From NCBI GenBank assembly GCA_016778465.1, contig JADHPM010000002.1, forward strand, positions 1-64,000: 64,000 nt of DNA. Reading direction: 5' to 3'. A program made the translations under genes and the position numbers. The notes under the pieces are model-generated. The model worked only from the letters and a program-made list of their open reading frames with translations. It had not been told where the DNA came from and did not search any database. The DNA is from Methylophilaceae bacterium (GTDB lineage: Bacteria; Pseudomonadota; Gammaproteobacteria; Burkholderiales; Methylophilaceae). Shown piece by piece: positions 4,219 to 61,425 of this stretch (positions are counted from its first letter, which is position 1; each line of letters opens with the position of its first letter).

Positions 4219-4641
4219 TTATCTTTTTTTTCTTAGCTTTTCAATCGCTTGCAGTTGAGCCATAGCTTCCGCTAACTCAGCTTGTGCTTTAGCAAAATCA
4301 ATTTCAGCACTTTTAATCTTAATTGCTTCCTCAGCGGATTTTTTTGCCGCCAAAGCTTTTGCCTCATCAAGATCAGATCCTCGAATTGCAGTATCTGATA
4401 ATACTGTTACATGACCTGGTTGTACCTCTAATATTCCACCTGAAACAAATATTAATTGTTCCTCAGCTTTGTCAGCTAATTTAATTCTAACGGATCCAGA
4501 CTTCAGGGCAGTAATCATAGGTGCATGATGAGGATAGATACCGACTTCACCCATAATCGCTGGTGCGGCAATAAATTCGGCGGTACCAGAAAAAATGGAT
4601 TCTTCAGCGCTTACAATATCGATTTGGACAGTATTAGCCAT
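4219..4641 (-). CDS. atpC: ATP synthase F1 epsilon subunit
   Basis: The epsilon subunit is part of the central rotor stalk and can inhibit ATP hydrolysis. The N-terminal beta-sandwich includes the family segment [19 protein letters not shown], and the C-terminal half is two predicted helices rich in Ala, Lys and Glu. At 140 residues it has normal length. It is last in the atpIBEFHAGDC operon, two bases after atpD, and is followed by a strong terminator. Confidence 0.96.
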
Positions 4642-4643
4642 AA

Positions 4644-6074
<1,431 letters not shown>

Positions 6075-8555: not shown

Positions 8556-9089
8556 TTATGACTTTAAGCTGTAAGCTAAACTATTTAATTGTCCTTTAAC
8601 CGAGGCATCAATTACGGTGTCGCCAACTATAATTTTGGTACCACCAATGATACTTTTATCGATTACTAAATTACTTTCAATTTTTCTATTAAATTTTTTT
8701 TCAAGGCTAGCTATTAGGCTTTTCACAACAGCGGCCTCTGGTTTTTCAGCAACAATAATCTGTGCTTCCATTGTGCCCTCTTCTGAGTCTTTTAATTCTT
8801 CAAAGAGATTAAAGATATGAGGTATAACCATCAATCTTTTATTTTCAATTAGTAATTTAATGAAATTTTTTCCGTGCTCATCAATATCACCAACACATTT
8901 CATCAGAGCAGATTCGCGGTCGGAATCTAATATTTTTGTATCCTCTAAATAAGCTCGAAATTCTACATCTTTAACCAAGCCACTGAGCAAACTCAATAAG
9001 TCTGACCAAACTGCTAATTTTTTTTCGCCTTTGGCTAATTGAAAAACAGCTATGGCATAAGGTCTGGCAATTGTTGAAATCTCAGCCAT
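8556..9089 (-). CDS. atpH: ATP synthase delta subunit
   Basis: Delta joins F1 to the peripheral stalk. The N-terminal helical domain begins with IARPYAIAVFQLA, typical of the family, and the C-terminal domain contains IIGGTKIIVGDTVIDASVKG. It has 177 residues. It starts four bases after the stop of atpF, consistent with coupled translation. Confidence 0.96.
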   Translation of the reverse strand: MAEISTIARPYAIAVFQLAKGEKKLAVWSDLLSLLSGLVKDVEFRAYLEDTKILDSDRESALMKCVGDIDEHGKNFIKLLIENKRLMVIPHIFNLFEELKDSEEGTMEAQIIVAEKPEAAVVKSLIASLEKKFNRKIESNLVIDKSIIGGTKIIVGDTVIDASVKGQLNSLAYSLKS

Positions 9090-26649: not shown

Positions 26650-28009
26650 ACAATCTTTTTCTATCATTGCCTATTTAGTTGCGGCTATTTTCTTTATTCT
26701 TGCCCTAAAAGGGCTTTCGTCTCCAACATCTGCAAGGCAAGGTAACCTCTTTGGCATGATAGGTATGACCATTGCGGTCATCACCACTTTAATCATTGGT
26801 GAGAATTTAATTGCTCTGTTGATTTTAATACCGATCGCACTTGGTGGCGCCATTGGTTTTGTTGCGGCTAAAAAAGTTCAAATGACCAAAATGCCAGAGT
26901 TAGTCGCTCTAATGCACTCGTTTGTTGGTTTGGCTGCCGTGCTCATTGCTCTGGCCGCCGTTTTAAATCCAATTGAAGTTCATACCACGGTGCAAAGAAT
27001 TGAACTATTTATTGGCGCATTCATTGGAGCGATTACGTTTACGGCCTCAGTGATCGCCTTTGGAAAGCTGTCAGGAAAATTTGGCGCCAAAGCGTTAGTC
27101 TTTAAGGGTCAACATCTACTGAATTTAATTCTAGCTATTTTAATGATTGGGTTCGGGGCGATTTATTTTCAAAATGAATCCATTTTGGCTTTCATCGTAA
27201 TGGTAATTTTTGCACTCATATTGGGCGTGTTGTTGATTGTCCCAATCGGTGGCGCTGATATGCCAGTGGTGGTATCGATGCTTAATAGTTATTCAGGATG
27301 GGCTGCCGCAGGAATCGGATTTACTCTGAATAACTCAGTTCTCATTATTGCAGGGGCATGCGTTGGATCATCGGGCGCAATCTTGTCTTATATTATGTGC
27401 AAGGCCATGAATCGTTCAATCGTTTCCGTCCTGCTCGGCGGGTTCGGTAGCGATGTAGCTGAAGACTTAGCAGACAAAGGCGAAAAAAATTACAAATCAG
27501 GGTCCGTCGACGATGTTGCTTTTTTAATGAGTAATGCGGACTCCGTTATTATTGTGCCAGGCTATGGTTTGGCTGTAGCAAGAGCCCAACATGCATTGCA
27601 AGAACTAACTGTAAAGTTGGTAGAGAAGGGTATAACTGTTAAATATGCAATTCATCCAGTAGCTGGTCGCATGCCGGGGCACATGAACGTCTTATTAGCA
27701 GAGGCTGATGTTCCCTACGAGCAAGTTGTTGAAATGGAAGACGTCAATAGTGAGTTCCCACAGACAGACGTTGTTTTGGTTATTGGCGCAAATGACGTCG
27801 TAAATCCTGCTGCAAAAACTCCAGGAAGCCCCATTTATGGAATGCCTATTTTGGAGGCACAAAAAGCTAAAATGATTATTGTGAACAAACGCTCAATGGC
27901 TCCCGGATACGCTGGTCTCGATAATGATTTATTCTACATGGATAAAACCATGATGCTTTTTGGTGACGCAAAAAACGTTGTGGAAGAGCTAGTAAAAACA
28001 ATAGAATAA
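26642..28009 (+). CDS. pntB: NAD(P) transhydrogenase subunit beta
   Basis: PntB has an N-terminal membrane domain of several helices (about 1-265) and a C-terminal NADP(H)-binding domain III with [18 protein letters not shown] and [18 protein letters not shown]. It has 455 residues. With pntAA and pntAB it makes a complete enzyme. NADPH from it could feed peroxide-reducing systems, which fits its place beside oxyR. Confidence 0.96.
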
Positions 28010-28101
28010 TATATCAACGATAATAATTTATTAAAAAACAATCTTAACTTTTTTGCTGCGCAACTAAAAAAATATTATCTATATTTAAGTAATAAAATAC
28101 T

Positions 28102-28130
28102 CTTACAATATTCTTTCATCACTCTATAAT
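28102..28130 (+). promoter_or_regulatory. Sigma-70 promoter giving a probably leaderless mRNA
   Basis: CTTACA (28102-28107) and a perfect TATAAT (28125-28130) are spaced by 17 bases. The ATG of the next gene begins eight bases after the -10, where transcription should start, so the mRNA would have almost no 5' leader. No Shine-Dalgarno element is visible. Confidence 0.6.
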
Positions 28131-28137
28131 TAAATCT

Positions 28138-28398
28138 ATGAGTGAATTAGATGAATTCCTAAACTATCTTGAGATATCTTATGAAAAGCTAAATGCTTTT
28201 GTAATATTAAATTTAAGTGAATTTGTTTTGGGGATTCTAATAATTTCAATAGCGGTAGTAATAATTTCAATGGCATATGTGTTGGTTTTATCAAAAGCAA
28301 CATCAAAAAAAAGGTCTGCACCAAAACGAAAAAAAATGAAATACACGAACGAGTTTATACAAGGCGTGCAAGGCATCGATCTTGATTTAAAAAAGTAA
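28138..28398 (+). CDS. Small single-pass membrane protein of unknown function
   Basis: I do not recognise a family. The 86 residues have an acidic N-terminus, one strong hydrophobic helix (about residues 28-53) and a very basic stretch KKRSAPKRKKMK just after it, which by the positive-inside rule puts the C-terminus in the cytoplasm. It has a consensus promoter whose start point coincides with the ATG. It is a single gene between pntB and the sigma-factor module. The opposite-strand ORFs here are shadows. Confidence 0.65.
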   Translation: MSELDEFLNYLEISYEKLNAFVILNLSEFVLGILIISIAVVIISMAYVLVLSKATSKKRSAPKRKKMKYTNEFIQGVQGIDLDLKK

Positions 28399-28519
28399 CA
28401 GCTCTAATTTATATTGTTTGTGTTAATACAAAACAATATGTTAGAAGCAGAAACAATGATAATAATGTATTTATAAAATAAGCCATAGGTGAATATTAAA
28501 GAAAAAATAAACATCATGT

Positions 28520-28538
28520 GTTACTGCGAATCATTATC
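28520..28538. promoter_or_regulatory. Candidate Fur box
   Basis: The 19 bases match the classical Fur consensus (GATAATGATAATCATTATC) at 15 positions, including an unbroken AATCATTATC. It lies about 150 bases upstream of the sigma gene. The surrounding DNA is AT-rich, which raises the chance rate, but ten consecutive matches are hard to dismiss. It suggests iron control of the sigma/Sel1 module. Confidence 0.45.
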
Positions 28539-28644
28539 ATTTTCATTTAAGAAAGCCCATATATCGCTTGGGCTGAGCGGCAATAGTTGAACAGGAGGAA
28601 TAACTATTACGCTTATGTAGTCTGTAAAATATTGAAAATGTCAG

Positions 28645-28671
28645 CCCTGACAAATTCATACCTTCATCGTC
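28645..28671 (+). promoter_or_regulatory. ECF-type promoter of the sigma-factor gene
   Basis: CCCTGAC (28645-28651) is followed after 16 bases by CGTC (28668-28671) and then T. CGTC is a common -10 element for ECF sigma factors. The identical elements and spacing recur upstream of the secreted Sel1 gene at 29936-29962, which suggests both are read by the sigma factor encoded here. The -35 overlaps a perfect inverted repeat (28639-28652). Confidence 0.6.
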
Positions 28672-28691
28672 TACCTGATTAAGGAGGAATC

Positions 28692-29249
28692 ATGTGGCAA
28701 AAAGATTGTTTTGATCTCATAAAAAGTAATGCCCCAGAGGATAAAAACAAAGGCATAGAAATTTTGTATGAAAATAATAAAATAAAATTTGAGGGATTCT
28801 TATTTAACCGGGGCTTTAAAAAAGAGCAAATAGAAGAAATTTTGCAAGAAAGCTTTATTAAAATTTTTAAGAGTTTTAATACACTTAAAGACTTTAATAC
28901 GCTTGAATCTTGGTGTTGGAGAATTCTGCGAAATACAACAAATGATTATCTTAGCCCAATCATAAAGGGCAGAGAAGGAATAAAAAAATTGGAGAGCGAA
29001 ACAGAAGAAGCGGCCTTAGAAGATAACCAAAATGATTCACAAAGTGATTGCGTATCAAAGGGTTTACAAGAATTTAATTTAGCAGAGCCTGATCGTGGCT
29101 ACGCTTTACAGTTGCAATTAGATAATTACCCTATCACTGAAGTTGCTATACGAATCGGGAGAACACCAGCAGCAACAAAAGAGTATTTAAGTCAAATAAG
29201 AAAAAAAGTTGCACCATTTATTGAACATTGTTTAGAGAATGACGAATGA
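28692..29249 (+). CDS. ECF-family RNA polymerase sigma factor
   Basis: The 185-residue protein has region 2 at about residues 30-90 (EEILQESFIKIFKSF, then LESWCWRILRNTTNDYL) and region 4 at about 140-180 (YPITEVAIRIGRTPAATKEYLSQIRKKV), joined by an acidic linker. There is no region 1 or 3, so it is an ECF (group IV) factor. Its ATG has an excellent AAGGAGG. The stop overlaps the next gene's ATG (ATGA), as expected of a sigma/anti-sigma pair. It probably drives its own promoter and that of the Sel1 gene two places downstream. The ECF subgroup cannot be fixed by eye. Confidence 0.88.
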   Translation: MWQKDCFDLIKSNAPEDKNKGIEILYENNKIKFEGFLFNRGFKKEQIEEILQESFIKIFKSFNTLKDFNTLESWCWRILRNTTNDYLSPIIKGREGIKKLESETEEAALEDNQNDSQSDCVSKGLQEFNLAEPDRGYALQLQLDNYPITEVAIRIGRTPAATKEYLSQIRKKVAPFIEHCLENDE

Positions 29250-29941
29250 AAAAGATAGATTTGGATAACGCATGGCTTCAAGTAATACAAGGCAAGTCAG
29301 TAGAGTTGATTGGTAATAGAAAGCTAATTCTACAAGCTAAATTAGTTAGACAGGCGCTTATTCAACAAAGGCAAAGATTCGAGAGCCTTAAAATAGATGA
29401 CGATAAAGTTCTGGCAAATATTCATCAAGCATGTGGTACGACAAAAAATAAAAATCCAATAATCAGGCAAATTTCTAAATGGGTTGGCATATTAATTTTG
29501 GGCAGCGGGGTTGTTTATGCCACAAAGACAATTCTTCATTTTAATGAGTTTCAGGAAACCAAAATTAATACTGAGACAAAAAACGAAACAGTTTTAAAAA
29601 ATGATAGCAAGGGGTTTTGGGGTGAGTGGTTTGATTCCAAGGGATCGTTTACAGGTTTTTGGTCAAAGCTCCAGCTCAGGCATTATGACCAACCAATCAA
29701 TACGGCAAACAACAACTGCAGACCTGATAATTTAGTATTCGAGAATTGTTTAAAATTAGCTAAGGAAAACAATGCAAGCGCACAATTTAATATCGCACTC
29801 ATGTATGAAAAGGGAATTCAAACGACGCAAAACTATGATAAAGCGTATGAGTGGTATAAAAAATCTGCAGCCTTAGGTAATGTAGAGGCACAATTTAATA
29901 TGAATTTCTTGATCGAAAAAAATTTAGTTAACAAACCCTGA
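29246..29941 (+). CDS. Membrane-anchored putative anti-sigma factor with a C-terminal Sel1 repeat
   Basis: The 231-residue protein has a charged cytoplasmic N-terminal part (about 1-76), one membrane helix (about 77-97) and a C-terminal part likely in the periplasm. That outer part carries FWGEWFDSKGSFTGFW (124-139) and one to two Sel1-like repeats (about 165-225, with AQFNIALMYEKG and KAYEWYKKSAALG). The layout and the four-base overlap with the sigma gene indicate an anti-sigma factor, but I see no canonical anti-sigma motif. The FWxxW...GSFxGF motif recurs in the secreted Sel1 protein that follows. Function is inferred from context. Confidence 0.65.
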   Translation: MKKIDLDNAWLQVIQGKSVELIGNRKLILQAKLVRQALIQQRQRFESLKIDDDKVLANIHQACGTTKNKNPIIRQISKWVGILILGSGVVYATKTILHFNEFQETKINTETKNETVLKNDSKGFWGEWFDSKGSFTGFWSKLQLRHYDQPINTANNNCRPDNLVFENCLKLAKENNASAQFNIALMYEKGIQTTQNYDKAYEWYKKSAALGNVEAQFNMNFLIEKNLVNKP

Positions 29942-29962
29942 CTATTAGAACCTATGGTCGTC
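29936..29962 (+). promoter_or_regulatory. ECF-type promoter of the secreted Sel1 gene
   Basis: CCCTGAC (29936-29942) is followed by 16 bases and CGTC (29959-29962) plus T, identical in both elements and spacing to the promoter of the sigma gene. The -35 overlaps the stop codon of the anti-sigma-like gene. Predicted transcription starts about 27 bases before the ATG at 29996, leaving room for the GAGG ribosome-binding site. Confidence 0.6.
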
Positions 29963-29995
29963 TTAATGATTAAGTAAATCATTTATGAGGCGATT

Positions 29996-31240
29996 ATGAA
30001 AATTAAAAAAATTTCTTGTATTTTAACTTCTGTTTTTTTGATCTCTTCAAGTTACGCAAGTGAAGATTGTATCAAAAAAGATTTTTGGTCAACTTGGTAT
30101 AGCCAAGGAAGCTTTAAGGGATTTGGTTTGCCTCCAATAAAAGCTGAAATCCATAAAGCAGAGTATCAATTGGCCGAGGAATATTATCAGGGTAAAAGGG
30201 TATCTAAAAATTATACAAAAGCACGCGAGTTATTTTCTAGTGCGGCTGATGGAGGCCTCGATCAAGCAAACTTTCGCTTGGGGTTAATACATCACTACGG
30301 ACAGGGGACAACTAAAAATTTACCGAGAGCCTTTAATTATTATTTAGTCCTTGCAGAGCAAAATGATATTAGGGCTCAATTTAATATTGGATTAATGTAT
30401 CGCTATGGCTTGGGCACAGACAAAAATTTAACAGAGGCATTTAATTGGTTTTATAGGTCTGCTTCAGCTCAAGAAAAAGTTGATATAAATAATTGCTCTG
30501 TTGAGCAAACTCCTTCAGCAGAATCTCAATATAATATAGCGCAAATGTATCATTATGGCTTGGGCATTGATAAAGATATTAAAAAAGCATTTTCTTGGTA
30601 TGAAAAAGCTGCAAAAAATAATTTAAAAGAGGCGCAATTTAATTTAGCAAAACTCCTTTTAGAAGATAACATTATTGAATTAAATTTTGAAAGAGCCATT
30701 GAAAGCTACCAATTAGCAGCAGAACAAGGTCTAGCAGAAGCGCAATTTAATTTGGCTCAACTACTGCATTATGGCCCAAGTTATTTTCAAAATCATCGCA
30801 GAGCATATAAATGGTATCTAAAGGCGGCCGCACAAGATTCAAAAGAGGCAATTTTTAATTTAGCCTTAATGAATCAATATGGCAGAGGCACAACACAAAA
30901 CTATATTTCTGCAAAAAAATATTATCACCAAATTGAAGATCAAAATATACCTGAAACTTACATTAATTTAGGATTTATATACCACTATGGATTAGGAACC
31001 CCTGTTGATGATAGAAAAGCAGTAGGCTATTTTCAACAAGCGTCGCGTTATAATTTTGGCGAAGCTGATTTTCACCTTGGAATTATTTACCGGGACGGAA
31101 GAGGAGTTAGTAAGAATTTAATACTTGCTGAGTCCTTTTTTCAAAAAGCAAAAGAAAAAGGTATTTTCGAGGCAAATCAAATTATGAATACTTTGGCTAT
31201 GCGTGAGCCAAATGATGTCAAATTGTTTGAGTTGCCATAA
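29996..31240 (+). CDS. Secreted protein with nine Sel1-like repeats
   Basis: The N-terminus MKIKKISCILTSVFLISSSYA is a cleavable signal peptide, so the protein is periplasmic or exported. FWSTWYSQGSFKGF (30-43) follows, matching a motif in the preceding membrane protein with one gap. The rest is about nine Sel1-like repeats of roughly 36 residues with the pattern AQFNxGxxYxxGxG...A..WYxKAA. Sel1 repeats form a helical solenoid that binds other proteins. It has its own ECF-type promoter. I infer that it acts outside the cytoplasm with the anchored Sel1 protein, perhaps as a sensor partner or effector; the ligand is unknown. Confidence 0.85.
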   Translation: MKIKKISCILTSVFLISSSYASEDCIKKDFWSTWYSQGSFKGFGLPPIKAEIHKAEYQLAEEYYQGKRVSKNYTKARELFSSAADGGLDQANFRLGLIHHYGQGTTKNLPRAFNYYLVLAEQNDIRAQFNIGLMYRYGLGTDKNLTEAFNWFYRSASAQEKVDINNCSVEQTPSAESQYNIAQMYHYGLGIDKDIKKAFSWYEKAAKNNLKEAQFNLAKLLLEDNIIELNFERAIESYQLAAEQGLAEAQFNLAQLLHYGPSYFQNHRRAYKWYLKAAAQDSKEAIFNLALMNQYGRGTTQNYISAKKYYHQIEDQNIPETYINLGFIYHYGLGTPVDDRKAVGYFQQASRYNFGEADFHLGIIYRDGRGVSKNLILAESFFQKAKEKGIFEANQIMNTLAMREPNDVKLFELP

Positions 31241-60985: not shown

Positions 60986-61240
60986 TTAATGGTTTAAATA
61001 TTTCCCCATTGTAATTATTGTTTTCCCATCATGGGATTGAATAAGATAAGAGTTACTATGATCTATCAAAAATAAAAACTCATCTTGCTTCAAGTGATCT
61101 TTAAGTTCTTTAATCGTGAGAAGTTTAAAGTATCTTAAATAACCACGGTGGTTAATTTTTTTTCTTGCTCCATATTTTATTAATGCATTTTGAATAATTT
61201 CTGGGATATCTTGAACCTGACAGGCCAATTCTTTTTTCAT
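60986..61240 (-). CDS. Small protein of unknown function
   Basis: I do not recognise a family. The track start is too early: an AGGAG element seven bases before the ATG at 61240 fixes the start (MKKELACQVQDIPEIIQ), giving 84 residues. The protein is soluble, basic (pattern KYGARKKINHRGYLRYF) and may fold as alpha/beta. An inverted repeat GCTAG-N8-CTAGC lies just upstream at about 61259-61276. It lies 77 bases upstream of the Agt-like gene's ATG on the same strand but is probably separately transcribed. Confidence 0.65.
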   Translation of the reverse strand: MKKELACQVQDIPEIIQNALIKYGARKKINHRGYLRYFKLLTIKELKDHLKQDEFLFLIDHSNSYLIQSHDGKTIITMGKYLNH

Positions 61241-61425
61241 TTGTTCTCCTAAAATGTGGCTAGTTTTCGCACTAGCCCTGCGAAGAAAGGAATTCATAGG
61301 GGAACAATACCTTTTCTTAAAAAATAAGACGAAGATTAAGCCAGAAAGTCAGGTTTTTAATTAAAAACCTGTTTAATTTTTTATTTGTTAAACTAAAGTC
61401 ATGATAAACGTACTCTTTGATTAAT

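Follow-up and report, generated by a model that had tools for sequence, protein, structure and literature searches.

In Escherichia coli, the RpoE regulon includes the small RNAs MicA and RybB. Elsewhere, ExoR, a secreted periplasmic Sel1 protein, restrains ExoS (PMC4550343), and at the CcaF1/CcsR (CIN1) locus small RNAs and the gene of a small protein are expressed from an alternative-sigma promoter (PMC10253847). For the OM43 methylotrophs, the transcriptome of strain NB0046 includes a classical RpoE with MucB/RseB (PMC5120137), which is a different system from the one considered here. The present locus lies in a stretch of 64,000 nucleotides from a Methylophilaceae genome, hereafter the window, and encodes an ECF sigma factor, a putative anti-sigma factor with a Sel1 repeat outside the membrane and a secreted Sel1 protein. 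The sigma factor, the anti-sigma factor and their predicted regulon probably form the core of an autoregulated ECF envelope-response system of OM43 methylotrophs. No description of Sel1 on an ECF anti-sigma factor was found among the open papers searched, a set that did not include the main ECF classification.

The sigma, putative anti-sigma and secreted Sel1 genes

The features of the window are as follows.

28543–28618, minus strand: structured RNA, stand-alone copy (covariance-model matches, covariation)
28617–28644, minus strand: predicted divergent promoter CTGAC-N16-AGACTAC, back to back with the sigma promoter
28645–28672, plus strand: predicted ECF-type sigma promoter CCCTGAC-N16-CGTCT, 20 bp 5′ of the start codon
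28692–29249, plus strand: ECF sigma gene, 185 aa, sigma2 and sigma4 regions (Pfam, NCBIfam and profile matches)
29246–29941, plus strand: putative anti-sigma gene, one transmembrane helix and one Sel1 repeat (Pfam, hhalign)
29936–29963, plus strand: predicted ECF-type promoter of the secreted Sel1 gene, spanning the anti-sigma stop codon
29996–31240, plus strand: secreted nine-repeat Sel1 protein, 414 aa (signal peptide, Pfam)
60986–61240, minus strand: small protein, predicted regulon member, 84 aa (AlphaFold2 pLDDT 86; no Pfam or PDB fold match)
61247–61325, minus strand: structured RNA, second copy, 5′ leader of the small gene (R1 and R2 model matches)
61327–61353, minus strand: predicted third ECF-type promoter CCTGAC-N16-CGTCT (relaxed motif search)

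A first-pass annotation of the window had described a sigma gene overlapping a Sel1-bearing membrane protein, followed by a secreted Sel1 protein, and this arrangement is borne out in its coordinates, in the ATGA overlap at 29246–29249 and in the presence of one and nine Sel1 repeats, respectively. The assignment of the sigma gene to the ECF type likewise stands, given its profile similarity to ECF structures and its matches to NCBIfam ECF models. The Pfam Sigma70_r2 match (5.7e-5) lies slightly under the cut-off, and the NCBIfam ECF models match below their curated cut-offs, the SigZ-like model at 1.9e-13. A profile of 16 sigma orthologues matches the RpoE, SigH and SigW structures with E 9e-11 over residues 8–164, from sigma2 to sigma4, and the 185-aa protein has the sigma2 and sigma4 regions alone, as well as the structural similarity, that define the ECF group. 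The protein is a fast-evolving ECF factor whose C-terminus carries the conserved signature RTPAATKEYLSQxRKK. An alignment of the sigma factor against viral contigs gave no confirmed relative, and a FecI/TonB reading was set aside because the locus has no receptor or FecR-like protein.

The membrane protein consists of cytoplasmic N-terminal helices, a single transmembrane helix at about residues 79–97 and, outside the membrane, a Sel1 repeat at residues 177–212 (29774–29881; Pfam PF08238, E 1e-10), just ahead of which lies an FWxxWF..GxFxGFW segment (29615–29662). Its identification as the anti-sigma factor had been drawn from the gene overlap; to this can be added that the N-terminus is homologous to those of other sigma-linked membrane proteins (hhalign probability 97.3%, E 2.6e-11). 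Sigma genes of the same family in distant Betaproteobacteria have behind them the gene of a single-helix protein that lacks Sel1, and since the N-terminus is homologous to such Sel1-less sigma-linked proteins, the membrane protein is very probably an anti-sigma factor to which a Sel1 repeat has been added on the outside. The ATGA overlap with the sigma gene, the one transmembrane helix and the homologous cytosolic N-terminal domain are all those of a membrane anti-sigma factor. The AlphaFold2 model is confident for the Sel1 part only, with a pLDDT of about 46–70 at the N-terminus.

The third protein has an N-terminal signal peptide and nine Sel1 stretches (Pfam, E 1e-71). Its mature form opens with an FWxxWYxxGSFKGFG segment (30083–30127) that is also found in the anti-sigma factor, the common FWxxWF..GxFxGF segment being matched by hhalign at 94% and E 1.5e-7. 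In one clade, a small putative lipoprotein gene directly follows the secreted Sel1 gene (L122 1613–1795, L123 2268–2456, L124 1179–1403), and the gene next after it encodes an HGHxFGW-type secreted protein.

The co-occurrence search suggested at first pass found the order of sigma factor, Sel1-bearing membrane protein and secreted Sel1 protein kept in 18 of the 18 other genus loci examined, among them that of G027, which has a fragmented sigma frame. Clades differ in the genes on either side (pntAB, primase and rpoD-like genes, among others), so that an intact trio is found at changing chromosomal positions. Of 14 near-complete genomes, 11 have both the sigma factor and the secreted Sel1 protein and 3 have neither. 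A search of 187 family genomes found orthologues in the genus of the window and two more distant ones in a single genome of another genus, the remaining matches being weak, as expected from housekeeping sigma factors. Contig L120 (genome G025) carries, near the small-protein family described below, a more distant pair of sigma factor and small membrane protein without Sel1 (4306–5457 and 8580–8894); this pair is possibly an ancestral form. A contig of a 'Bacteroidetes' MAG (L089) encodes an OM43-like sigma factor and an HGxxFGxLK-type secreted protein and is probably misbinned.

The promoter motif and its predicted regulon

The pattern CCCTGAC-N16-CGTCT, which had been noted to be identical before the sigma and secreted genes, occurs exactly twice in the window, at 28645–28672 and 29936–29963, and not once in 100 shuffles. 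The genome-wide search that had been proposed for it found CCCTGAC-N16-CGTC at exactly two sites in the whole 1.24 Mb genome, both at this locus, and the reversed pattern at none. When relaxed to CCTGAC-N15-17-CGTC, the motif has four genome sites against two for the reversed control: two at the sigma locus, one within a porin gene, which is probably a chance occurrence, and one at 61327–61353 on the minus strand, 5′ of the small gene. Among 31 genus genomes, CCTGAC-N15-17-CGTCT gives 52 sites and the reversed control 9. Nearly all loci have the motif 5′ of the secreted Sel1 gene, and in most orthologous loci it is also found before the sigma gene or before the first gene of the sigma operon.

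Spacer length differs between genomes, at 15, 16 or 17 bp, and within a genome the unlinked promoters agree. In a table compiled by hand (62 sites, 20 genomes), the spacer is uniform in 16 of the 20 genomes, with a within-genome sum of squares of 2.75 compared to 25.4 for shuffles, and none of 20,000 shuffles is as uniform; relatedness inflates this test, and collapsing the genomes to 11 representatives gives the same result. The -10 block behaves similarly, as the clade of G001, G003, G005, G013 and G029 has CATC instead of CGTC in the sigma, secreted Sel1 and divergent promoters alike. Uniformity of spacer and -10 within each genome is what co-evolution with one sigma factor would give, and the joint change of the two is strong evidence for a single cognate sigma factor, which would recognise its own promoter and autoregulate. 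The shared promoter proposed in the first-pass annotation is upheld by this co-evolution and by its conservation across the genus loci, and the sigma-specific promoter of the system may be written YCCTGAC-N15-17-CGTC/CATC. The divergent -10 in the window is weak (AGACTAC) and off consensus at two core positions, where relatives have CGTC or CATC.

The same pattern might instead be the site of a DNA-binding regulator, since CCTGAC and GTCAGG form a palindrome where the divergent promoters meet. Such a site would, however, have to account for a two-block motif of fixed orientation 20–35 bp from the starts, for spacer and -10 variants that are uniform in a genome, for a CGTC-type block typical of ECF promoters and for RNA copies that begin right after the motif, which makes this explanation scarcely credible next to that of a sigma promoter.

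The locus had also been described as self-contained, a view that does not survive: within the window the same promoter lies 5′ of the small protein and the structured RNA, and elsewhere in the genus it precedes additional secreted proteins. Genus-wide, the motif is found 5′ of the small protein, a secreted 'HGHRFGW' protein, a single-Sel1 protein of about 200 aa, a SIMPL-domain protein and TIGR03788. The last, a marine sortase target protein, is present in 3 of 31 genus genomes and in all three lies directly behind the motif, or behind the motif and the small gene. The carriers that have TIGR03788 in the ECF regulon are HTCC2181, G017 and G027 (L126 1635–3500, L127 2447–4761, L121 3–1952), and in L127 a class GN sortase follows it.

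Eleven genus genomes encode a member of the small protein family, which adjoins the motif and the RNA in 10 of them; in L095, L096 and G025 it stands next to the sigma gene. Given the RNA leader, the start of the gene in the window was revised from a 103-aa ORF to 84 aa. The product has a predicted mixed alpha/beta fold (AlphaFold2 pLDDT 86), and searches of Pfam and of PDB folds gave no match, for which reason a DUF4258/RelE-like reading was dropped. It is predicted to be a cytosolic member of the regulon. Near the sigma gene, just past the divergent RNA, the plus strand has at 28520–28560 a conserved GCGAATCATTATCATT sequence similar to a Fur box, which is found in the same place in L033, L034, L036 and L045; given this similarity, the sigma region might be iron-responsive as well.

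The composition of the regulon bears on the role of the Sel1 proteins. Other secreted proteins of the regulon have no link to the anti-sigma factor, and some Sel1 proteins, AlgK and MotX among them, are structural; the regulon, including its secreted Sel1 protein, could accordingly be output only, serving to scaffold or repair the envelope, with a passive or structural Sel1 repeat on the anti-sigma factor. On the other hand, the Sel1 repeat and the FWxxWF..GxFxGF segment are both common to the anti-sigma factor and the secreted protein, and the genes of the two are adjacent in every locus, which leaves a pure output role as a possibility to be viewed with some doubt.

The structured RNA

The RNA predicted to start at the divergent promoter comprises stem 1, closed by a CCUCCUG loop, and stem 2, closed by a GCG loop, with a CGC junction between the stems and ACC after the second; the stand-alone copy at 28543–28618 on the minus strand has the CGC/GCG pseudoknot and a U-rich end. 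A model built from seven copies (R1) found further copies in the genus. The stand-alone copy, which is included in the alignments of both models, matches R1 with E 1.2e-14 and the second model, R2, with E 2.5e-12, and the leader copy at 61247–61325 on the minus strand matches R1 with E 0.004 without being part of it and R2, which includes it, with E 8.7e-11. With the second model, the RNA is found in this genus only, one of 24 genera of the family. At gathering score, no Rfam family matches window positions 28000–30100 or four loci with other copies.

In an alignment of 19 copies, fitted to the two-stem structure and therefore favouring the stems somewhat, 98% of cells are paired and 11 of the 16 pairs have changed on both sides; none of 500 shuffles is as good, and sliding the partners abolishes the pairing. 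The CGC/GCG pseudoknot hardly varies, with two of its three pairs varying on one side only, so that its support comes from conservation rather more than from covariation, and the RNA is probably pseudoknotted. A plus-strand reading was set aside because the G.U pairs fit the transcribed minus strand only, which is also the direction of the ECF promoter.

Of 22 copies, 11 begin 0–2 nt past the -10 and one 13 nt past it, eight lie 281–292 nt 3′ of the motif, after the small gene, and two have no standard motif, one of them being the divergent copy of the window with its degenerate -10. The copies of G006, G008 and G027, which are outside both model builds, lie 1–13 nt behind motif sites. From these positions, the RNA appears to start at the sigma-type promoters. 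The CATC clade keeps the divergent promoter and gives no match to the RNA model; behind that promoter its loci (L035, L037, L038, L040, L041) have another sequence, which contains stretches of GGAGG and CCUCC.

Several copies end near U-rich stretches, and the RNA is repeated in some genomes, features that an intrinsic terminator or a mobile palindromic repeat would also have if it lay near promoters by chance. There are, however, only one or two copies per genome, nearly all of them at ECF promoters or the small gene, the loop and junction are conserved although unpaired, and most copies have no U run right after stem 2. An origin of this kind is therefore very unlikely.

Among the 58 genes of the window, the best pairing partner for the loop of the stand-alone copy is the ribosome-binding site of the sigma gene (-16.0 kcal/mol), and the site of the anti-sigma gene comes next. 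Across nine genomes, whose sigma ribosome-binding sites differ in sequence, sigma takes first place within its own locus in seven genomes and one of the first seven places among 153 pooled genes in eight; in G016 the complementarity is poor. Part of this complementarity is to be expected, because sigma genes have strong Shine-Dalgarno sequences, and the pairing is partly what any C-rich loop would show.

Nine of the 22 copies lie 4–23 nt before a gene and have a loop that can pair with its Shine-Dalgarno sequence, as in the small gene of the window, where the loop GUUCCCCUA stands opposite UAGGAGAAC; an H-type pseudoknot beside the Shine-Dalgarno sequence is, moreover, typical of leaders. The RNA could thus be a cis-acting leader or attenuator, perhaps riboswitch-like, and not a trans-acting small RNA, which is a reasonable proposition held at somewhat less than even confidence. 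It is countered by the ten copies that are divergent from sigma and have no gene after them, and by the pairing of loop with its own Shine-Dalgarno sequence, which gains only slightly on swapped pairing (-9.4 vs -8.7 kcal/mol). The favoured interpretation combines both modes, in that the RNA would be a sigma-dependent anti-Shine-Dalgarno regulator that limits sigma synthesis and acts in cis where it is a leader.

Proposed mechanism and comparison with known systems

In the proposed mechanism, an envelope signal would alter the state of the Sel1 domain of the anti-sigma factor and release the sigma factor, which would then induce itself, the anti-sigma factor and the secreted Sel1 solenoid. The solenoid, which has the FWxxWF..GxFxGF segment in common with the anti-sigma factor, would probably bind the same partner or the anti-sigma factor itself and reset the switch, in a way comparable to the restraint of ExoS by ExoR. 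A second negative loop would be provided by the divergent RNA, pairing via its CCUCC loop with ribosome-binding sites, that of sigma first, and the leader copies would act on the gene 3′ of them. The RNA feedback step is close to evenly balanced, with a slight lean towards doubt, and the Sel1 feedback on the anti-sigma factor is put forward a shade more tentatively.

Although OM43 genomes are streamlined to about 1.3 Mb, the system is retained in most of the genus and should therefore matter in coastal seawater. It offers a defined, testable candidate regulon in a group whose regulation is barely known, and the cultured OM43 isolate HTCC2181 (genome G002) carries it. What it would add to knowledge is a Sel1-bearing anti-sigma factor and a strongly covarying structured RNA for which the Rfam search gave no family.

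The likeness to RpoE-RseA of E. coli lies in the sigma2–sigma4 ECF factor, the linked gene for a (here putative) single-helix anti-sigma factor, the autoregulation, predicted in the present case, and the envelope regulon with small RNAs, likewise predicted. The present system differs in the Sel1 repeat on the putative anti-sigma factor, the secreted Sel1 partner, the CCTGAC/CGTC promoter and the pseudoknotted RNA with an anti-Shine-Dalgarno loop. Several betaproteobacterial ECF loci (L091, L095, L096, L097, L098, L101) belong to the same sigma family and have a homologous sigma factor with an AATxEYxSQCRKK C-terminus and a homologous anti-sigma N-terminus and, in L095 and L096, the small-protein family next to sigma; their anti-sigma factors, however, lack Sel1, and some of their neighbours are of caspase or TPR type and not Sel1.

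ExoR-ExoS/ChvI of the Rhizobiales resembles the present system in having a secreted periplasmic Sel1 protein act on a membrane signalling protein, and the signal peptide and nine repeats found here are those of an ExoR-type secreted Sel1 protein. In contrast, ExoS is a histidine kinase, whereas the membrane partner here, its binding being a matter of prediction, is a putative anti-sigma factor with a Sel1 repeat of its own. The NCBIfam ExoR model scores 56 bits against a cut-off of 450, and the genes neighbouring the locus include no kinase, of ExoS type or other. CcaF1/CcsR of the Alphaproteobacteria likewise places a small-protein gene and small RNAs under an alternative-sigma promoter. The small protein there is an unrelated DUF1127 protein, while the one here has no DUF1127 domain and no Pfam match; the RNA structure also differs, being pseudoknotted here, and control is by RpoH there and appears to be by an ECF factor here, in Betaproteobacteria. 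By homology the system is of the ECF sigma/anti-sigma kind, and by these comparisons it is neither an ExoR nor a CIN1 locus. It might, as a tentative and rather doubtful proposal, represent an undescribed ECF type, in which a Sel1-receptor anti-sigma factor is set by its own secreted solenoid and a new pseudoknotted RNA, made by the same sigma factor and feeding back on sigma translation as a second loop, acts both as leader and in trans.
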